Assembly: GCA_903875215.1 (NCBI GenBank)
Contig: CAIQVH010000023.1
Span: 1 to 61,517, forward strand
DNA length: 61,517 nt
Direction of reading: 5' to 3'
Source of the DNA: an uncultured Anaerolineae bacterium
Lineage (GTDB): Bacteria; Chloroflexota; Anaerolineae; Anaerolineales; Villigracilaceae
This document shows positions 39,245 through 51,395 of this stretch, piece by piece (within the stretch, counting starts at the first letter, position 1; every line of letters starts with the position of its first letter). Both the position numbers and the translations under genes were made by a program. The notes below the pieces were generated by a model. The model ran no database searches, had not been told where the DNA came from, and saw only the letters and a list, made by a program, of their open reading frames with translations.

Positions 39245-42200
39245 ATGAAAAAAAACAACCCCATGATCTGTGAGCGCCTGATTACCGCTGTGCTTCTCAC
39301 TGCGATTCTGCTTGCGCAGTTTGCGCCGGTGATCGAAGCGCAGGCAGCGGCGGCGCTGACGGTGACTCCTATCACCTGGAATGTCATCGGCCTCGACAGC
39401 AACAAGGTCACCGTCGGCCCGAACCTGTTCCCGATTGGCGCGCATGTTTGCAACAGCGGCAATGCAACCGCGACGGATGTCACCTCGGCCTTTGTGTTTG
39501 ATGATGGTGGGGATTTGTATACCGGCGGGACGTATATCAACCTGCGCAGCGGCTCGCTTTCGGCGCACACGACTCTGGGGACGAACCTGACGGCTGGCAG
39601 CTGCACGGATTTCTATTATGAAGTGGAAGTCAAGCGCGATGCTAATGCCTACGATACCACCCGAAAATATCACATTACCGCTTCGGCCAATTCTGGCGCG
39701 GTGACCGGCAGCACGCCCACGCCGCGCGAACTTTATGTGGAACACCTGGTTTCGCAGTCGCGCAACGCTGTCACTGATGTGCAGCTCGATGGCGCATCGA
39801 TCCCGGCAGGCGGGACGATGTCCCTGATGGTCGGGAACACCTACACCATCAAGCTGATCGGGTTTACCGCCACCCAGGGCTATAACCAGCTCGAGAGCTT
39901 CATCAACTTCCCGAATACAATTTTCCAGGTGCTGGCGGTTAGCTCCACTTTTACGGCAGGCACCTCGCCCATCACCACACTTTATGCCGACGCCTGCGGT
40001 TGGGATAACGTCACAACCAGCCCCACATACCGTTCCTGCATCGTCTCGGATAACAAGTCCGGCGGCGATGTGACGGTCACCTATACGGTGAAAATTTTGT
40101 CGGCGGGGTCTGGCGGGGCGAAAACCCTCGGCACCCTGTTGTATGACTTTTCGGGCAGCAGCTATCACTACAACAGCGACTTTGGCATCTCGAGCCGCTA
40201 CGCTGAAATTATTGACCCATCGACGAAAGTTTCCATTTCCAAGGCTTTTTCGCCCTCCAGCATTCCGCCGGGCGGCAGTTCCACCCTGACGGTGACGTTG
40301 ACCAATACTGCCGCGGTGACGATCACCGGCGCCAATTTCAGCGACTCGCTGCCGCTGCAGATGGTCGTGGCAACGCCCTCGGTTTATTCCACCTCCGGCT
40401 GCGGTTCGCCCACTTTTGCGCCGGTGGCGGGCGCCAGCAGTTTTTCGGTTTCAGGGGCCACGCTCGCGCCGAACGGCTCCTGCGTGCTGAATATTGCGGT
40501 CAGCGTGCCTGCCACGCCCACCAGCGGAACCTACGCCAACACGATCACCAATTTCAAGATCGGCTCCTCGCCCACGGCCGGACTCTCCAGCAATACCGCC
40601 AACCTGACGGTCAGCGCCGCTTCCGGCTCATCCGGTTCTGGCCTGTGCGGAGTGAACATCGCCACCTGGGATTTTACCGGGGCGACATCCGGCGCGCTGA
40701 CTTCTCCCTACGCGGCCAACAGCGGGAGCAGCAGCTCGGCCAACTTGACCTGGGGCAATGGCCTCTCCATGCAAGCCGATACCACCTCCGGCGGTGGCAA
40801 TCCCCAACCGGGCGGGGTGTCGTATGGCTGGCAAAAGCTTAGCCCTATTGCCACTGCTACCTCAGCCTATATCCAGTTTGCGGTCGATACCAACCAATAC
40901 TCCGCTGTGAAATTGCGTTTCGATGCGCAGCGGAAGGCCAATGGCCCCAACAATGATGAGCTGTACTACAGTACGAATGGAACCACCTGGACCTCGAAAA
41001 GTACCTTCACTTCCACCACCAGTTGGGCCAGTTATCCTTCGGCCAGCACCTATTATGATTTCACCGCGCAAACCAATGCCAGCGGGATCACGTATTTCCG
41101 CATCTATGGCTATGGCGCGAATGCCACCAGTTCCGGGAACGATCTGTCGGTTGATAACATCAGCTTCACCGGCTGCGGCCCGGCGGCTGCGCCCACCCTC
41201 ACCAAGCACTTCAACACCAACCCGCTGGCGGTCACTGGCACCAGCACCCTGACCTTTACCATTACCAACCCCAACTCCAGCAGCAGCACGCTCAACGGCA
41301 TCCAGTTCACGGATGTTCTGCCCAGCGGCCTGTCGTTTGCGGCCAGTAGCAGCAGCTCGGTCTGCGGCGGCACATTGGCCATCACTACTCCGGGTACGAT
41401 CAGCTTCAGCAGCGGCGTTCTGGCAGGCGGCGCCATCTGCTATATCACCACCCCGGCCATCACAGTCTCCACCAGCGGGCCGCACCCGAATATCTCCGGT
41501 TTTATCTCTTCCACGGAAAGCGGCACCAATGCCACTGCCAACGGATCGGCCAAGGAAAGTATTGTTGGCCTGCTGCCGCCGACGATCGAGAAGCTTTTCA
41601 GCGCCAACCCGATCCTTTCGGGCGGGACGAGCACCCTGACTTTTACCATTACCAACCCCAACCCGGGTAATGAAATGCCGGAAGTTGCCTTTACCGACAC
41701 CTTCCCGACCTCGCCGGGAGCGATGATCGTGGCCTCGCCGGTCACCAAATCCACCTCGGGCTGCGGAACGCCCACTTTTGCCCCCAATGCCGGGGATGCT
41801 TCCATTTCCTTCTCGCACGGCAGCATCACCGCGGGCGGCACCTGCACGGTCAGCATCCTGGTCAAAGTCCCGGCCACTACCGGGGATTACGCCAACACCA
41901 GTGCCGCGGTCACTTCCACGGTGGGTGGGCTCACAATCGGCAGCGATACCGCCAGTTCCACGCTGGTCGTCAATGCGCCCAACCCCGGGTTTACCTTCAA
42001 CAAGCAGGTCAGCGCCAGCAGCAACGGCCCGTGGAGCAGCTTTGTGACCGTGGCGCCCGGCGCCACCGTTTATTACAAGTTCACGCTGGAAAATACGGGC
42101 GATGTGCCGCTCACGCTGACCGCTCCTGTGGTCAGCGATGCCAAGGTCAGCACCGCCGGTTGTTCGTGGCCCGCCACTCTGCCGGTGGCCTCGCCCTCGT

Positions 42201-45200
42201 CCAATCCAACCACCAGCTGTACGGTGTCTGTCACTGCGGTAGCCGGTGACCAGCCCAACGTGGCCTCCGCCACGGCCTATTACAACTCGACGCCCTACAC
42301 CGCAACGGCGGATGCCACGTATTATGGCGTCGCTTCCGGCGCTTTGAACCTGTCCAAGCAGGTCGGCACCTCGGCCAGCGGGCCGTGGACAACCAGCCTG
42401 ACTGGCGTTACGACGGGCAGCAACCTGTACTACCGCTTCTCGGTCATCAACAAGACCGGCGTCTCGTTGACCTCGCTCAACCTGACCGATGACAAGATTC
42501 TCACCGCCACGCTCGATACGTGCGAAGCCTCTTTCACCAGCCCACTGGAAAATAACAGCGCCACTTTCTGTGTGCTCGGCCCGGTCACTGCGAGCGGCTC
42601 GGGTACGCAGACGAATACCGCCACGGTCAGCGGGATGAATGGTGTCACCCCTTATACCTCGGCCAGCGCTTCCGCCAGCTACACCCTGGCTGCGCCGCTG
42701 CTGAATCTGACCAAGAGCAATAACAACACAACCCTGACAAAGAATGGCAGTACTACCTACGTCCTGACCGTCAGCAATGCGGGCAACACCACCACCAGCG
42801 GACAAATCGACTTGATCGATGTGCTGCCCAGCGGGCTGACCGTCACCGGTGGCGCGGTTACCCTGGGCGGCGCAAATTCTGCCAATTGGAACTGCACGGC
42901 CGCCAGCAATGTGCTGACCTGCTCCAGCAACACTGCCATCGCCGCCAGCGGGACGAGCGAATTCAGCTTTACGGCGGCGGTTGGCAGCAGTATTTCCGGG
43001 ACGTTGACCAATACAGCCCAGGTTGGCGGGGGCGGCACGGGTGTCACGCCCACTTCCACTTCTGCGAACCTCTGTACCGCCGCCAACACCCCGACCCAGG
43101 GCTGCGCGGTGGATAGCGATACAGCGACCCTCAATGCCGTACCGCTGGCGGTCAATGACAGCGCCACGGCCACGGCAGGCGTTGCCAAGAATATCGACGT
43201 GCTGCACAATGACACGCAGTTGGGCGATACCCCGACGGGTATTCAAAGCGGCACCATTTCCACTCCAACCAAGGGTACAGCGGTTTACAACAACAATAGC
43301 ACCCCTTCCGACCCCACCGACGACTACATCGTCTACACTCCCAATGTCAGCGCCAGCGGCACCGACACCTTCACCTACGAAATCTGCGACATCACTCCAG
43401 ACTGTTCCACCGCCACGGTGACAGTCACCATCAATGCTGTGCCGGTGGCAGTTGACGACAGCACCACGGCCACGGCGGGCGTCGCCAAGACAATCAGCGT
43501 GATGGGCAACGATACGCAGCTGGGCAACACCCCCACCACACTCACGAGCATCCCCACCGCGCCCAGCAAGGGCAGCGCGACGATCAGCGGCTCGAATATT
43601 ATTTACACCCCGTATGTCAGCGCCAGCGGCACCGACACCTTCACCTACACAATCTGCGACAGCACCACCCCCACCGCCGACTGCTCCACTGCCACGGTGA
43701 CGGTCACCCTCAACGCTGTGCCGCTGGCGGTCAATGACAGCGACACGGCCACGGCGGGCGTTGCCAAGAATATCGACGTGCTGCACAATGACACGCAGTT
43801 GGGCGATACTCCAACGGGCATCAAACACGGCGTTGGCGACATTTCCACTCCAACCAAGGGTACAGCGGTTTACAACGACAATAGCACCCCTTTAGACCCC
43901 ACCGACGACTACATCGTCTACACTCCCAATGTCAGCGCCAGCGGCACCGACACCTTCACCTACACAATCTGTGACATCACTCCAGACTGTTCCACCGCCA
44001 CGGTGACAGTCACTCTCAACGCTGTGCCGGTGGCGGTCAATGACAGCACCTCCGCCACCACGGGCGTAGCCAAGGACATTGACGTACTGCACAATGACAC
44101 CCAGCTTGGCGATACTCCAACGGCGATCACGACGGTCGGCACGCCTGGCCACGGTACCGCTACCCTGCATAACAACGGTACCCCGGCTGACCCGACCGAC
44201 GACCATATTGTCTACACCTCCACTGCAGGATTCAGTGGCCAGGATACGTTCACCTACACAATCTGCGATCACACCAGTCCCACCCCCGATTGCTCCACTG
44301 CCACGGTGACTGTACAGGTTGATGTGCCCCTGATCGGTCTGGCAAAAGAACTGGTTGGCTCGGCGGTTAAAATCTCGGCGGGCGTCTTTCAACTCACCTA
44401 TAAATTCTGGGTGCGCAATTACGGCCCCACAGCCTTGAGCTCTGTCCAGGTGACGGATGATCTTGAATCGATTTTCTCCCTCCCCACCACCTACACCGTA
44501 AAATCTCTCAGCAGCACAGATTTCACGGTTAATTCCTCCTTCAACGGCGATTCGGATCCAAACCTGCTCAGCGCAACCGGAAATACCCTGCCTGTCTCGA
44601 CCTCTAAAACCATCACCCTGGTCATCTGGGTCATCCCGGCCTCGCACGGCCCGTTTGAAAATACTGCCATTGCCAGTGGCAAGGATCCCAACTTAAACAC
44701 GGTGACAGATACTTCCCAGAATGGCAGCAATCCCGATCCGGATAGCGGTGGCGACCCCACCAATAACAGTGACAAGACACCGATCACATTCTCAGGCAGT
44801 ATTTTCGACCCGCCATTTGGCGTCAAGGTCTATGATGACAGCGGGCTGCCGGTCTTGCGCTGGACGATGATCTGGATTAATGAGACCAACCTGTCTGGCC
44901 TGGCTGCCAGTGTCGCCGACCCGATTTCTGACGGCACGGCTTATGCCGGTGGGTTGGCCTGCACCCCCAGCGGCTCGACCACCACGAGTCTATGTACCTA
45001 CGAGGCTCCCAGCATCACCTACCCGCGCGGGCGCATCCTTTGGGAAGGAACCATGGGGCCAGACCAGGGTCATCTGGATGCGGCCACGGCCAACAACGAA
45101 CTGGACATCAGCTTTAATGTCTCCGTTCTGGCTGGGACAACCCAAATCAACAACACCGCATCAATTGGCGCAGACCTGGATGGGGATACCATCATTGACC

Positions 45201-45811
45201 CGGTCACAGAAGCGGCGCTTTCCACCTCCAGCGCCACCTGGCCCGATCCGGCTTTCAAAAACCCGGATGCCAAAGGATCGAAGCTGCTCCCCGGTACCGG
45301 CTTTGCTCCCGGCCTGGTCAGCCAAATTCCCCCTCAGCCCGATCTGTCCGCCTACCGGGATGATCTCCGTCTGCGGCTCGAGATTCCGGCGTTGGGTGTG
45401 GAAACCGAAATCATTGGTGTTCCCCTGCTGGATGGCAGTTGGGATACAACCTGGCTGGGATCGCGCGCAGGATACCTGGAAGGCACTTCCTTCCCCACCT
45501 GGGATGGCAACAGCGTCATCACCGGGCATGTTTATGGCTATAATGGCAAACCCGGGCCCTTTGTCAACCTTGGTTTGCTGAGCTGGGGCAAGCAGATCGT
45601 GATCCATGCCTATGGCCAGAAATACATTTACGAAGTCCGCCAGGTCAAGACCATTCGCCCCGATGATCTAACCGTGTTGGGGCACAAAAACTCAGCCTGG
45701 CTGACCCTGCTGACCTGTAAGCAATATGACACAGCCAGCGGCCTTTACAAGCTGCGGACCGCGGTACAAGCTGTACTCGTCAGAGTGGAAGCTGAATCCG
45801 TAACGAAGTAG
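39245..45811 (+). CDS. Giant secreted DUF11/Big_9 repeat protein with LPGTGF motif and C-terminal sortase domain
   Basis: A 2188-residue protein. Signal peptide (about 1-33, [20 protein letters not shown]). Repeated beta-sandwich DUF11-type domains begin at about 333, 652, 779, 916, 1034, 1152 and 1695 (e.g. [20 protein letters not shown]). Four tandem cadherin-like Big_9 domains span about 1302-1691 ([32 protein letters not shown]). LPGTGF at 2015-2020 matches a sortase sorting signal. A complete sortase domain follows (about 2040-2185) with His2095 (ITGHVYG), Cys2158 (LLTCKQYD) and Arg2171 (KLRTAV). No C-terminal TM helix was found. Presumed cell-surface stalk or adhesin. Ribosome-binding site GAAGGA. 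Confidence 0.88.
43126..44320 (+). repeat. Four tandem ~290-nt coding repeats (Big_9 units)
   Basis: Units of about 285-300 nt start near 43126, 43434, 43720 and 44020. Units 1 and 3 are nearly identical at the DNA level: GCCAAGAATATCGACGTGCT and the following CACAATGACACGCAGTTGGG recur at about 43186 and 43766. This suggests recent duplication or gene conversion. Expect copy-number variation between strains. Confidence 0.8.
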
Positions 45812-45846: not shown

Positions 45847-45870
45847 AGCGGATGGCGCAAGCCATCCGCT
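45847..45870 (+). terminator. Hairpin after the surface protein gene
   Basis: A 10-bp stem AGCGGATGGC / GCCATCCGCT with a GCAA tetraloop, followed by TCTATATT. A weak terminator or mRNA 3' stabiliser; the cpaF gene starts 36 nt on. Confidence 0.5.
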
Positions 45871-45906
45871 TCTATATTGGTGCTATACTCAGCCTGTGGA
45901 GGTCCT

Positions 45907-47208
45907 ATGCCAGATCGCCTGATTGAAGTCATTCCGCCCGCCCTGCGCGATGAATCCGTTTTGCGGCTGAAAGCCCGACTGGTGAGCCTGATCACACCGG
46001 AATTGCAAAAAATCCCTTCCAGCCAGCTGACGCGCGCCAATGTGCGCCTGGGGTTGGAAAAAACCCTGGCCGTGCTCACCCCCGGAGGCGGCCTGCCTGC
46101 CGAAACCTTGCATGAACTGGTGGAGAGCGCGCTGGCTGACCTGGTGGGCTATGGCCCGCTGGAGCTGTTGCTGCGCGACCCGGAGATCAATGAAATCATG
46201 GTCAATGGCGCCAGCCTCGTATTTATTGAACGCGGCGGGGAATTGTATGAAACCGATCTCCGTTTTGCCGACACATCCCATCTGATGCAGATCATTGACC
46301 GTATCCTGCTTCCGCTTGGACGCCGGGTGGATTACGATATGCCCACCGCCGATGCCCGTCTGCCGGATGGCTCGCGCGTCAACGTTGTCATTCCGCCGGT
46401 TGCGGTGGATGGGCCGACCCTCACCATCCGCAAGTTTTTACAGACGAAAATGTCCATTGAAGACCTGATCAACCTGGGTACGCTGACGCCTTATGCGGCC
46501 AAATTCCTCGAAGCCTGCGTTGTGGCGCGCCTGAACATCCTGATCTCCGGCAACACAAGCTCAGGGAAAAGCACCCTGCTCAACATCCTGTCGACGTTTA
46601 TCCCCGCATACGAACGCATCATCACCATCGAAGATGCCGTCGAACTGCAAATGAAACAGCGTCACGTTGTGCGTCTCGAAACCAAACTGGCCGGCGTGGA
46701 TGGCGCCGGAGCCGTCAGCATCCGCGAACTGGTGCGCAATGCCCTGCGCATGCGCCCCGACCGGCTGGTGGTTGGCGAAGTGCGCGGCGGTGAGACCCTC
46801 GATATGCTCCAGGCGATGAATACCGGCCACTCCGGTTCACTGACCACCCTGCACGCCAACTCTCCGCGTGATGCCATTGCCCGCCTCGAAACAACCGCTC
46901 TTATGTCGGGCATTGACCTGCCGATCATCGCCATCCGCAAGCAAATTTCTTCAGCCGTCAATCTCATTATTCACACTGCGCGCCTGTCGGATGGCACTCG
47001 CAAGGTCATGCAGATTACCGAACTGGCCGGCATGGAAGGCGATATCGTCACCCAGACCGATATTTACAAATTCGTCGCCACCGGCACCGGCCAGGATGGC
47101 AAAATTCAGGGCAGTCTCAAGCCCACCGGGATCCGTCCGCAGTTCAGCCCACGGCTCGAAGTTGCCGGGTACAAACTGGGGGGAGAGTATTTCGGCCTGG
47201 GATTCTGA
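45907..47208 (+). CDS. cpaF: CpaF/TadA-family secretion ATPase (orphan)
   Basis: A 433-residue type II/IV secretion ATPase starting MPDRLIEVIPPAL at an ATG with GGAGGT (frame open to 45877). N-terminal helical domain, then YGPLELLLRDPEINEIMVNG, Walker A SGNTSSGKSTLLN, ITIEDAVELQM, Walker B-type RLVVGEVRGGE, and the HANSPRDAI His box. Such ATPases drive Tad pili or related pseudopili from the inner face of the membrane. No pilin, TadB/C or prepilin peptidase gene is in the window, and it follows the surface protein gene. Confidence 0.92.
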   Translation: MPDRLIEVIPPALRDESVLRLKARLVSLITPELQKIPSSQLTRANVRLGLEKTLAVLTPGGGLPAETLHELVESALADLVGYGPLELLLRDPEINEIMVNGASLVFIERGGELYETDLRFADTSHLMQIIDRILLPLGRRVDYDMPTADARLPDGSRVNVVIPPVAVDGPTLTIRKFLQTKMSIEDLINLGTLTPYAAKFLEACVVARLNILISGNTSSGKSTLLNILSTFIPAYERIITIEDAVELQMKQRHVVRLETKLAGVDGAGAVSIRELVRNALRMRPDRLVVGEVRGGETLDMLQAMNTGHSGSLTTLHANSPRDAIARLETTALMSGIDLPIIAIRKQISSAVNLIIHTARLSDGTRKVMQITELAGMEGDIVTQTDIYKFVATGTGQDGKIQGSLKPTGIRPQFSPRLEVAGYKLGGEYFGLGF

Positions 47209-47303: not shown

Positions 47304-47639
47304 ATGGAAGTTTCTACTAAAAAATTCAAACATTGTGATCTGGTCACCGTTACCGGGCGCGTGGATAGCGCGACGGCTCCGCGCCTCTCCGAAGTACTCA
47401 CGGCTCTGAATGATGAGGGGTGTTATCGCATTGTGATGGACATGGCTGGTCTCGAATATATGTCAAGCGCCGGGTTTCGGGCGCTGATTGCCACACAGCG
47501 CAACTGTAAGAACTTCAACCGCGGCGAAGTGGTGTTGGCCTGCATTCCCGGAAACATCCTTTCAGCGCTTGAGCTGGCGGGTTTTACGATGCTGTTTAAA
47601 ATCTACCCGGATGTTACGACGGCGGTTGGCAGCCTGTAA
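47304..47639 (+). CDS. STAS-domain anti-sigma factor antagonist (RsbV-like)
   Basis: A 111-residue single STAS domain. VTVTGRVDSATAPRLSEVL and the phosphorylation loop DMAGLEYMSSAGFRAL (Ser54/Ser55) are typical of RsbV/SpoIIAA. The unphosphorylated form would bind an RsbW-type kinase; the next gene encodes such a kinase fused to a PP2C phosphatase. A TATAAT at 47245-47250 may be its -10 box. Confidence 0.9.
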   Translation: MEVSTKKFKHCDLVTVTGRVDSATAPRLSEVLTALNDEGCYRIVMDMAGLEYMSSAGFRALIATQRNCKNFNRGEVVLACIPGNILSALELAGFTMLFKIYPDVTTAVGSL

Positions 47640-47732
47640 TCGGCCTTCATTCCTTGCTTGCGATCGAGCCGCTCAGACAGACTTACGTCCGGGCGGCTTT
47701 TGCTCATTCGCAGGCTGAGAACGGAACTACTC

Positions 47733-50700
47733 ATGCCCACTCGTTTGTTTGCTGCCCAATTTGAAAATCTCGACCCGATTCGCGAGTTTGCGGGCGAGGT
47801 GGCGCGTCAGGCGGGCATGGAAGCGAAAGACATTTACAACCTCCAGCTGGCAGTGGATGAAGCCTGTTCCAATATCATTGAGCATGCTTACGAGGGTATT
47901 CCCGATGGGCAGATCGAAGTCAACCTGCTGGTCTCGCGCGCAGCTTTCAAGGTAATCCTGCACGACCAGGGCAAACGCTTTGACCCCGATTCGATTGCCG
48001 AGCCGGATGTGGAAGCGGCCCTGGAAGATCGCGCAATTGGCGGGCTGGGGTTGTTTTTCATGCGCAAGTTAATGGATGAAGTCCATTTTGAATGGCATCC
48101 GGGGCGCGGCAACACCCTGATCATGGTCAAATGGCGGCGGCGCGCGCCCCAACCGGCCCGGCCGAGCAAACCCGGTTACCCCGATATTTTTAACCTGGGG
48201 GAACAGATCCTGGCGGCTCCTACTTTGGGTGCGCAGCGTGATCTGATCCTGGAGACGGCTGGCAGGTTGGTGCCTGGCGAGTTGATTTTGTGGCTCAATC
48301 CGGCCTATTTTCATCTGCCCGACTGGGTGGAGCGCGTCTTTCTGCCCGGGCCGCCGGAAGTGCTGATGGAGCTGGCGTATGCACAGGGCCGGACTCTGCG
48401 CCGGCAGGTGGAGGGGGTCGTCTCAGTGGCGATCCCGCTGCGGCATGAGGAGACCGGCCTGGGTGTGCTCTTTTTCCGCCGCGGCAACGGGGAAAGGTTT
48501 TCGCGGCGTGAATCCAATTTTATGCAGGGGTTGGCGCGGGTGGCGTCCATCGCCTTGCTGGCCTGGCACCGCTTGAATGTGGAGCGCTGGCGCATTGGTC
48601 AGCTGGGGCTGGTGCGTACGGTTTCGGCGCAGATTGCTAACGAGGCGGATATTGATGAACTGGCTCATCGCGTGACGCGCCTGATCCAAAAGACGTTTAA
48701 GTATTATTATGTTGGGATTTTCACGCTGGAGGCGGGCCAGCAGGTGCTGACGTTTCGATCCAGCTCAGGCGGGGCTACGCGCCGCAAGGGGCGCATCAAG
48801 GTGGTGGCGTTTGATGTGGCGATGGGGCAGGGGCTGGTAGGCGAGGCGGCGCAAAACGGGCAGGAGATCCTGGCCAATGATGTGCGCCAGGAGCCGCGCT
48901 ACCGCGAGCTGGATGTGCTGCCGGAGACGCGGTCGGAGGCGGTGATTCCGCTGAAAATTGATGAGCGCGTGGTGGGGGTTTTGGATGTCCAGTCGGATGC
49001 GCTGGATGCTTTTCATCCGTATGACTTGTTGGTGCTGCGCGCGCTGGCGGGCAGTGTGGCGGTGGCGGTGGAAGGCGCTAACCTTTATGGCAGCTTGCGC
49101 CGCCAGGCCAACCAGTTGCGCGTGGTGGGCGAGGTCAGCAAGCAGATCACATCAATTTTGAATTTGCGCGAGCTGATGCAGGAAGTGGCCGAGCTGATCA
49201 CCAGCCGGTTTGGGTTCCCGTATGTGCATTTGTTTACGGTGCACCACAACCGGCGGCAGATCCATTATGAGGCCGGGTCGGGGGCGCGCTCGGAGGCGCT
49301 GGAAGGCTATATGATTGACCTGGATGAGCCGGAAGGGGTGCTGCCCTGGGTGGCGCGCACCGGTCTGACTTTGCTGGCCAATAATGTGGAGGCAGAGCCG
49401 CATTATCGCCCTTCGCCGCTCCCGCCTGCCAATACCCGCTCCGAACTGACGGTGCCGCTGACCTTTAACGGGCAGGTGATCGGCTTGCTGGATGTGCAGT
49501 CTGACCAGTTGAACGCTTTTAACGAGCAGGATCGCCTGATCTTTGAAACCCTGGGCGATTCGATCGCGGCAGCCATTCGCAACGCTGACCTGTATCGCTC
49601 CGAGCAGTGGCGGCGCCAGGTGGCCGACAGCCTGCGCGAAGTGGCGGTTCTGCTTTCAGCCAACGCCAGCCTCGACCAGGTGCTGGACGCCATTTTGACC
49701 GAACTGGAACGCAACCTGCCTTCGGATGTCTCGGCCGTCTGGCTGCTGGACGAGGAGAATCTGTACTGCGCCGCCGTGCATGGCGCCCGCGCCGCTGACC
49801 TGGAACGCGCCCGCGACCAGTTCGCCGAAGCGAATACCATGCTAGCCGCGGCCCTGCTTTCGCGCCAGCCCTTCATCCGCCGGCGCACTGATCTGAAAGG
49901 CCCCTCCGCGCTGGCGGCAGGTTTTGATTCAGACCATTCGGCCATTGCCGTGCCCTTGCGCATCGGCGACCAGTCGGTTGGCATCCTGACCCTGGCGCAT
50001 CACACGCCCGGCCGCTATGGTCACGAAGCCCGGGCGATGACCACCACTTTTGCCAGCTATGCCGCCGTCGCCATTGAAAACGCCCGGTTGTTTGATTCTG
50101 CCCAGGAACAGGCCTACGCATCAGCCGCCTTGTTGCAGGTTGCCCAGGCGGTGGTCAGCCTCTCCGATCTGGAGGATATTCTCAGTACCATTGTGCGCAT
50201 CATGCCAATCCTGGTTGGCGTGGAACGCACCGCCATCTACCTTTGGGATGCGCAAACGGCGCAGTTACGTCCGTCCCAATCGTACGGCCTGCCCGAATCG
50301 GCCTGGTCGAGCGTCTGGCGGCCGTTGCTGTGGAACGAATTTCCCCTGCTGACAGCCGCATGCGAGACGGGGCAAATGGCCCTCTGCGCCGAAGCCCACC
50401 GCGGTCCCGAGTCCTGGCTGCAAATTCAACCCAGCCTGCCCTCCGAAGTGGATGAATTGATCCATAGCGAAGAACGCTTGCTGATCGCCCTGCCGCTGAT
50501 GGTCAAGGGCGAACTCTTCGGCGTGCTGCTGGTTGAAGAAGCCATGGGCGGGCGGCGCTTCCGCGCCCGGCGGCTGGAGATTTTACACGGCATTGCCCAG
50601 CAGGTTGCGCTCTCCATTCAAAATGACCTGTTTCAGCACGAGATGGTTGCCCGCGAACGTCTCGAAACCGAAGTTCAGCTGGCCCGCCAGATCCAGCAAA

Positions 50701-51395
50701 CCTTCATTCCTGAAAAACTTCCCACCCCGCCCAATTGGGATCTGGCTGCGCGCTGGCGCACCGCGAGGCAGGTGGGCGGTGACTTTTACGATGTCTTTGA
50801 ACTGCCGGATGGGAAACTCGGTCTGTTCATAGCCGATGTGGCCGATAAGGGTGTACCGGCCGCCATGTTCATGGCCCTGACCCGCACACTGATGCGCGCT
50901 GCCGTCCTGATCACGGATTCACCGGCCGGGGCGTTGCGCCAGGTGAACGAATTGCTCTATCCCGATGCCCAGCAGGGCATGTTCGTCACAGCCGTCTATG
51001 GCGTTCTCGACCCCGCCACGGGCCGCTTCACCTACGCCAATGCCGGGCATAATCCGCCGCTGCTGGTGCGCTTGGCTGAGCCAGAACAGATCGAACGCCT
51101 GACGCGTACCGGAGTGGCGCTCGGAGTGGATCTGGGCCTGGCACGCAGCGAACGCAGCCTGGAGCTGGCTCATGGGGATGTGCTTCTCTTTTATACCGAT
51201 GGGATTACCGAGGCATTCTCTGGCAGCGAGGAGATATTCGGCGAAGAACGCTTGCAAGCGCTGCTGACCGCCCAGCCCCCGGCTGCCTCTGCCGCCGAGA
51301 TTCTTTCGGCGGTGGATGAAGCTGTCGTGCATTTTATTGGCGCAGCCCCGGTCGCCGATGACATTACCCTGATCGTGATCAAGCGGGCGGCCTGA
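47733..51395 (+). CDS. RsbW-type kinase / multi-GAF / SpoIIE-type PP2C phosphatase fusion
   Basis: A 1220-residue protein. Residues 1-135 are an anti-sigma-factor-kinase HATPase: N box ACSNIIEHAY, HDQGKRFDP with Asp78, and GGLGLFFMRKLMDEV. About five GAF-type sensory domains follow (approximately 160-960), e.g. FKYYYVGIFTLEAGQQVLTF and VPLTFNGQVIGLLDVQSDQL. The C-terminal 240 residues are a RsbU/SpoIIE PP2C domain (ARQIQQTFIPEKLPTPPNWD, GGDFYDVFELPDGKL, DVADKGVPAAMFMALTR, FYTDGITEAFSG, ADDITLIVI). The frame is open from 47658; the ATG at 47733 matches the start of the kinase domain. Kinase and phosphatase for the STAS protein would be one chain. Confidence 0.9.
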   Translation: MPTRLFAAQFENLDPIREFAGEVARQAGMEAKDIYNLQLAVDEACSNIIEHAYEGIPDGQIEVNLLVSRAAFKVILHDQGKRFDPDSIAEPDVEAALEDRAIGGLGLFFMRKLMDEVHFEWHPGRGNTLIMVKWRRRAPQPARPSKPGYPDIFNLGEQILAAPTLGAQRDLILETAGRLVPGELILWLNPAYFHLPDWVERVFLPGPPEVLMELAYAQGRTLRRQVEGVVSVAIPLRHEETGLGVLFFRRGNGERFSRRESNFMQGLARVASIALLAWHRLNVERWRIGQLGLVRTVSAQIANEADIDELAHRVTRLIQKTFKYYYVGIFTLEAGQQVLTFRSSSGGATRRKGRIKVVAFDVAMGQGLVGEAAQNGQEILANDVRQEPRYRELDVLPETRSEAVIPLKIDERVVGVLDVQSDALDAFHPYDLLVLRALAGSVAVAVEGANLYGSLRRQANQLRVVGEVSKQITSILNLRELMQEVAELITSRFGFPYVHLFTVHHNRRQIHYEAGSGARSEALEGYMIDLDEPEGVLPWVARTGLTLLANNVEAEPHYRPSPLPPANTRSELTVPLTFNGQVIGLLDVQSDQLNAFNEQDRLIFETLGDSIAAAIRNADLYRSEQWRRQVADSLREVAVLLSANASLDQVLDAILTELERNLPSDVSAVWLLDEENLYCAAVHGARAADLERARDQFAEANTMLAAALLSRQPFIRRRTDLKGPSALAAGFDSDHSAIAVPLRIGDQSVGILTLAHHTPGRYGHEARAMTTTFASYAAVAIENARLFDSAQEQAYASAALLQVAQAVVSLSDLEDILSTIVRIMPILVGVERTAIYLWDAQTAQLRPSQSYGLPESAWSSVWRPLLWNEFPLLTAACETGQMALCAEAHRGPESWLQIQPSLPSEVDELIHSEERLLIALPLMVKGELFGVLLVEEAMGGRRFRARRLEILHGIAQQVALSIQNDLFQHEMVARERLETEVQLARQIQQTFIPEKLPTPPNWDLAARWRTARQVGGDFYDVFELPDGKLGLFIADVADKGVPAAMFMALTRTLMRAAVLITDSPAGALRQVNELLYPDAQQGMFVTAVYGVLDPATGRFTYANAGHNPPLLVRLAEPEQIERLTRTGVALGVDLGLARSERSLELAHGDVLLFYTDGITEAFSGSEEIFGEERLQALLTAQPPAASAAEILSAVDEAVVHFIGAAPVADDITLIVIKRAA

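Follow-up and report, generated by a model that had tools for sequence, protein, structure and literature searches.

A sortase fused to an LPxTGF sorting motif in a giant surface protein of an uncultured Anaerolineae bacterium: a conserved family of possibly self-sorting proteins

The window, by which we mean the whole 61,517-nucleotide stretch of DNA analysed here (all of contig C23, from a genome of 3.77 Mb), encodes a surface protein of 2188 residues in which a long repeat stalk is followed by the sorting motif LPGTGF and then by a sortase domain. Sequence comparison indicates that this motif-sortase fusion is a family rather than a lone oddity, and in structure predictions the LPxTGF motif packs confidently on its own sortase domain. 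Our best explanation, for which we find belief and doubt evenly balanced, is that of a self-sorting protein, whose own sortase cuts between LPxT and G, on its own chain or on another copy, and transfers the stalk to an acceptor.

Once such a protein is exported, its stalk and its C-terminal sortase would both be extracellular, and LPxTGFAP would sit in the substrate groove of its own sortase, at the position of the pseudo-substrate lid of class C sortases. Cys2158 would attack the bond between Thr2018 and Gly2019, which is the proposed scissile bond of LPGTGF, in cis or on a neighbouring copy, to give a stalk-thioester. An amine acceptor would then take the stalk, with lipid II, peptidoglycan and lysines on other surface proteins as candidates; mraY is present in the genome, which would make lipid II a possible acceptor. 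The sortase domain, having no anchor, would be held only until the stalk was transferred, and would be used a single time.

Sortases are known to act as membrane enzymes on separate substrates. The sortase fold, its catalytic triad and LPxTG are already known; among the papers listed by searches of the open-licence PMC literature, none by its title and abstract describes a naturally occurring fusion between a sortase and its own LPxTG. The sequences show how the protein is laid out, that motif and triad are conserved, that no other transmembrane (TM) helix is present, and that there are parallel fusions. If the self-sorting explanation is true, a conserved family with substrate and enzyme in one molecule would change the prediction of anchored proteins, would explain how surface proteins are retained in a little-studied class, and would represent a natural self-ligating cassette.

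Layout of the window protein and its paralogues

The gene is an uninterrupted open reading frame at 39245-45811 on the forward strand, with a GAAGGA stretch 5' of its ATG, identified by eye. An earlier sequence-only reading had described the 2188-residue product as having a signal peptide, DUF11 and Big_9 repeats, LPGTGF at residues 2015-2020, and a sortase domain with His2095, Cys2158 and Arg2171 and no membrane anchor after it. All of this was borne out by the sequence, by Pfam and by the hydropathy of the 2188 residues; DUF7933, which that reading did not name, is an additional component of the long stalk, which is made up of DUF7933, Big_9, DUF11 and related repeats. The features are as follows.

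39245..39349, + strand: signal peptide region, residues 1-35 (hydropathy peak at residue 12, 2.34 over 19 residues)
41579..41971, + strand: DUF7933, best of three stalk stretches, residues 779-909 (Pfam)
44018..44314, + strand: Big_9, best of four stretches, residues 1592-1690 (Pfam)
44390..44698, + strand: DUF11, best of four stretches, residues 1716-1818 (Pfam)
45287..45304, + strand: sorting motif LPGTGF, residues 2015-2020 (sequence; conserved in the 83-row alignment)
45287..45355, + strand: conserved linker LPxTGFAP...QP....Y, residues 2015-2037 (conservation; AlphaFold2 pLDDT 96 for model residues 31-40)
45377..45781, + strand: sortase domain, residues 2045-2179 (Pfam PF04203; structure matches)
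45527..45529, + strand: His2095 (sequence; 83/83 aligned rows)
45716..45718, + strand: Cys2158 (sequence; 83/83 aligned rows)
45755..45757, + strand: Arg2171 (sequence; 83/83 aligned rows)
45848..45869, + strand: terminator-like hairpin of 8 perfect pairs, then T-rich, TTCTATATT (by eye; between the sortase-fusion gene and the next)

The signal peptide is the strongest hydrophobic segment in the whole protein, and on our reading it is cleaved near AQA-A. DUF7933 and DUF11 are both listed as families of intramolecular isopeptide domains in PMC12617251. The C-terminal domain belongs to the sortase superfamily: PF04203 matches it at 70.4 bits against a cut-off of 26.6, TIGR01076 at 45 bits against 39.35, and the triad of the superfamily is complete in H2095, C2158 and R2171. 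The pentapeptide LPGTG, an instance of LPxTG, occurs once in the 2188 residues (2015-2019) and is followed by F2020. By hydropathy there is no TM helix between the motif and the sortase domain and none from the motif to the C-terminus, where both the TM helix and the positive tail of an LPxTG sorting signal are absent. The protein is thus like classical LPxTG sorting-signal proteins in its signal peptide, repeat stalk and LPxTG, but differs in that the sortase stands in for the TM helix and positive tail. The start of the motif lies 174 residues before the end of the protein, and the family would therefore be missed by the adhesin surveys of PMC12617251 and PMC10952558, which look for sorting motifs within the last 50 residues.

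A profile search located PF04203 at six places in the genome. Large frames on contigs C20, C31 and C9 end in LPKTGFAP-, IPVTGFTP- and LPFTGFAP-linker-sortase respectively, the one on C9 being cut by the contig end; all four large frames, including the window's, have the motif followed by the sortase. Their stalks differ according to Pfam, which recognises seven DUF7933 stretches in C20, a DUF5122 propeller in C9 and only the sortase in C31, and the same motif-sortase cassette is common to different stalks. C36 carries a stand-alone sortase frame of 309 aa with an N-terminal TM and without the motif, which is the sole intact stand-alone frame of the genome. A broken sortase remnant with an in-frame TGA is found on contig C4 of the genome (G000:C4; L006, L011).

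The DNA of the genome was also searched for LPxTGF, giving 15 places compared to 4 for the reversed pattern. Three of the 15 lie in surface-type frames and all three are sortase-fused; no separate LPxTGF substrate was seen among these matches, with a pattern that covers LPxTGF only and leaves IPVTGF of C31 outside.

Conservation in relatives

Two enzyme-core patterns, searched against genome contigs, matched 187 relatives; the analysis used the best 80 of these, ranked by a score that includes a contribution from the motif itself. These 80 come from Chloroflexota groups, mostly Anaerolineae. Among these best 80 of 187, the linker contains [LIM]Px[TS]GF in 79 and [TS]GF in all 80, with x free and the upstream sequence variable; the exception is L104, which has SVATGFAP. 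The sequence-only reading had stated that it would be refuted by loss of the motif in close homologues that keep the sortase, and had suggested searching related genomes for the same order. The motif is kept in 79/80 relatives, and the order is shared by four proteins of the window's own genome as well as by those 79. As a control, 60-residue windows were placed on the linker's [TS]GF and then shuffled: [LIM]Px[TS]G is present in 79/80 of the relatives' windows and in 172 of 16,000 shuffles. The other upstream parts of the relatives' frames, 106,509 residues in all, contain LPxTG 4 times.

An alignment of 83 rows was built from the window protein, two paralogues and the 80 relatives. At the motif it has L, I or M in 82/83 rows and P in 82, an entropy of 3.08 bits at x, and T or S, G, and F in 83 each. 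Past the motif there is A in 73/83 rows and P in 82/83, and then Q, P and Y are conserved, and the columns ahead of the motif are variable or gapped. The catalytic H, C and R are each present in 83/83 rows. The distance from motif to Cys is 140-145 residues in the 80 relatives, and 24-46 residues follow the Cys in 80/80.

A hydrophobic peak is found at the N-terminus in 27 of the 35 relatives that have a closed N-terminal frame, and a second TM in none of these 35. The last 450 residues just reach the TM threshold in one of the 80 relatives. At a looser threshold there is a weak TM-like stretch (1.70-1.90) within the 260 residues ahead of the domain in 5 of 109 rows of the window's family (which we call type I), the 109 including loci fetched by the motif itself. 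A Pfam scan of ten fused proteins, one of which belongs to the second fused kind described below, revealed no other anchor.

The DNA pattern LPxTGFAP was matched 22 times in 21 genomes, compared to once for the reversed pattern; in 21 of the 22 matches the conserved linker and sortase follow (one is cut by a contig end), and the other is unrelated. In another search, the motif was present in 14 of 15 type I loci, L190 being without it. Altogether 108 distinct domain cores were collected, and the counts overlap, several genomes being the same MAGs as the named loci. L190/L215 (G062:C75) is a type I domain that has no stalk and no visible signal peptide, and in which a degenerate LPASA replaces the motif; from its sequence it looks like a relic.

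Predicted structure and the class C lid

AlphaFold2 was used to predict the structure of residues 1988-2188 of the window protein, using 83 rows, and of a homologue from the Anaerolinea thermophila MAG TT109_54_104, using 41 rows. The first model has a mean pLDDT of 89.4 and a pTM of 0.83. In its first four blocks of ten residues the pLDDT is 48, 42, 73 and 96, the motif starting at residue 28; the corresponding values in the second model are 51, 56, 84 and 96, the motif starting at 26. The high pLDDT at the motif in both models amounts to a prediction that the motif packs against the sortase domain. The model is a sortase fold, matching 7cfj with a Z of 18.2 and 2.0 Å over 137 residues. The sequence-only reading had looked to structure prediction of the C-terminal part; what it has provided is the sortase fold, and a motif packed on the domain as judged by pLDDT and alignment ranges.

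Class C pilin sortases give the best sequence matches in the PDB (24rr, 1.7e-17; 8t28, 7.7e-16; 2w1j, 1.6e-15), and they too have a peptide directly N-terminal to the barrel and, by alignment ranges, over the groove. For most class A and E chains the alignment begins at about model residue 44-53, and for the lid-bearing class C chains at residue 17-25, so that it takes in the motif. The alignment runs through the motif in 16/17 class C rows for the first model and 14/17 for the second, the rows that fail being 3re9 in the first and 3re9, 4d7w and 6bwe in the second. S. suis SrtC1 is described as open in PMC3493515. A similar start, at residue 22-24, is found for B. anthracis SrtA (2kw8), which does not belong to class C.

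The prolines of the motif and of the DP(F/Y/W) lid coincide in the second model in 7/7 chains (4g1h, 4g1j, 3rbk, 3rbi, 3tbe, 2w1j and 2wts) if there is no gap, these chains representing three proteins, one of them in four chains, and the numbering of 3tbe being assumed to equal that of 3rbk. In the first model the overlay is exact in two of the seven and off by 1, 1, 1, 3 and 6 in the rest; in both models it is range arithmetic on aligned residues, and ranges hide gaps. PMC3493515 describes the class C lid itself as overlapping with LPAT bound to SrtA, the two prolines being at similar positions. By range arithmetic on the models, the position of the motif is that of the pseudo-substrate lid in class C pilin sortases, and the pseudo-substrate of the window family would thus be a real sorting consensus. 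The register of motif and lid is to be read with caution, because a profile alignment with a class C chain places FAP, not LP, nearest the lid DPF, and because the proline of FAP is 136 residues from the Cys and that of LP 142, compared to 133-134 in class C.

The window protein lacks the marks of a class C sortase. It scores 44.6 against the cut-off of 160 of the NCBIfam class C model, and it likewise falls far below those for classes D (36.2 against 165), E (30.9 against 160) and F (33.7 against 166). The DP(F/W/Y) lid of class C is absent, 82 of the 83 rows having [LIM]Px[TS]GF and one SVATGF. A C-terminal TM is called characteristic of class C pilin sortases in PMC3493515; the window protein has none, and in 80/80 relatives only 24-46 residues lie past the Cys. 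The window family therefore differs from class C in having LPxTGFAP and not DPX, in having no membrane anchor, and in being part of a giant surface protein.

STEPL is an engineered self-cleaving sortase fusion. BISOP fusions (PMC2901362) likewise have motif and sortase in one chain, but they are laboratory constructs in which the enzyme is ahead of the motif, unlike the window protein. The same paper gives 20-40% self-cutting of SrtA-LPETG fusions during synthesis, which makes the chemistry of self-cleavage plausible. GBS SrtC1 engineered with IPNTG in its lid (PMC3166054) has a sorting motif at the lid position; it is man-made, its Cys is mutated and the motif is disordered, whereas the window family is natural and conserved.

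Other sortase arrangements and competing readings

A sortase is present in 134 of 150 genomes of the class. Sortases were labelled stand-alone where there was a TM close upstream and no TGF motif near, and none of the 63 stand-alone sortases with a TM has LPxTG in the 260 residues upstream of the domain. Six domain rows have no label and enter no count; among them is L164, which has no TM and carries LPGTG 94 residues upstream. A classical substrate gene lies beside a stand-alone sortase in 2 of the 43 loci scanned, where a protein with LPETG, TM and positive tail ends directly upstream of the stand-alone sortase gene (L195, G127:C124; L202, G150:C2). Motif, TM and positive tail close a frame in genomes G161 and G150 only (30 loci, of about 95 anchor-model rows). 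The Gram_pos_anchor and LPXTG_anchor models have weak matches in every genome, both own and relatives, and also in most controls, so that separate LPxTG substrates are neither proved nor excluded by them.

A second kind of fusion, type II, was found in another order of the class. In G128, G113 and G151, a giant protein is arranged as stalk-LPxTG-TM-charged loop-TM-linker-sortase; judged by this arrangement, type II is a sorting signal that continues into a membrane sortase. Type II-like proteins are roughly 750-5200 aa long (G128:C1, L213; G113:C45, L212; G151:C136, L214; L217-L231, L234, L235 and L278-L281). A search of 61 genomes of this order gave 25 matches in frames of at least 500 aa, with a query that held the LPxTG-TM-TM part and so favoured like proteins. 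LPxTG and then TMs are present in 22 of the 25 (16, L220, G151 and four more), LAGTG or APQTG is at the place of LPxTG in two (L277, G173:C255; L282, G217:C53), and one (L283, G214:C23) has WD40-like repeats and neither motif nor TM. In the rows measured, the type II LPxTG is 109-195 residues ahead of the domain and before the TMs, and at that distance it cannot be a lid. The window protein, with no TM between motif and domain, is not type II, and the type I clade lies apart.

A tree was calculated from 121 domain rows, comprising 40 of the 109 type I, 17 type II, 63 stand-alone and one unlabelled. Type I forms one clade, which includes the relic L190 (100/94). Type II occurs in two places among the stand-alone sortases, one with 14 rows (100/99) and one with 3 rows and one stand-alone sortase (100/93). 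The separate placements of type I and type II suggest that sortase fusion probably arose more than once, in a tree that has few columns and a loose deep order. The proposal of the sequence-only reading that substrate and enzyme are in one gene gains support from the predicted packing of the motif and from the existence of another type of LPxTG-sortase fusion with its own place in the tree, and its self-cleavage part is a step that we infer. We tentatively put forward, with doubt somewhat outweighing belief, a fuller version: a natural one-molecule, single-turnover sorter, whose signal is the lid of its own sortase and is cut once on export, the stalk being welded to the envelope and the spent enzyme shed. 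The class would have gone repeatedly from separate genes (neighbours in G127 and G150) to LPxTG-TM-TM-sortase fusions, and the window clade to a compact anchorless form.

The main rival of self-sorting is that LPxTGFAP is a lid that is never cut, closing the groove as DPF does in class C, and that the fused sortase acts in trans on other proteins once this lid opens. We consider this unlikely. In its favour, the sequences closest to the domain among solved structures are those of class C sortases, the alignment ranges of the models place the motif over the lid of these enzymes, and FAP and QP....Y are also conserved in the 83 rows. Conservation that continues past the scissile Gly is a counterpoint to self-sorting, since a lid would explain it and a classical signal does not need it; another is that the TM and positive tail which usually hold such a protein are absent. 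Further counterpoints are the disorder of the IPNTG lid in engineered GBS SrtC1, the inexact proline overlay in the first model, the profile alignment of FAP with the lid, the type I members without the consensus motif (L104, L190/L215) and the three exceptions among the 25 large frames of the type II search. Against an uncut lid, x is free, and the exchanges among L, I and M and between T and S are typical of sorting signals, which favours self-sorting; the LPxTG of type II cannot be a lid; and the 15 DNA matches in the window's own genome include no separate LPxTGF substrate, although substrates with other motifs are possible.

It is also conceivable, but improbable, that the motif is cut in trans by the membrane sortase of C36, and that the fused domain only holds the protein in place of TM plus tail, or serves elsewhere. 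The genome does have this one intact stand-alone frame (309 aa, with an N-terminal TM); the catalytic residues are nevertheless kept in 83/83 fused domains, which is unexpected in a mere holder. We regard as very unlikely a self-polymer, in which a lysine of another copy would resolve the stalk thioester and the copies would be joined into a fibre like a class C pilus. Class C sortases are the nearest with a solved structure and the stalk bears isopeptide-family domains, but the stalks of the relatives vary widely. LPxTG is short, and could be an unimportant chance occurrence in the linker, which is hardly credible in view of its conservation (79/80, against 172 in 16,000 shuffles). We retain self-sorting as the best explanation.

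Downstream of the fusion gene, the hairpin at 45848-45869 is missing among the sites from a promoter and terminator scan, which gave nothing useful. The next gene after it, at 45877-47208, encodes a TadA/VirB11-type ATPase; no secretion protein was found among the other nine window proteins scanned with profiles. Further along, a STAS antagonist at 47304-47639 adjoins a single protein at 47658-51395 that consists of an RsbW-like ATPase domain, several GAF domains and a SpoIIE phosphatase.
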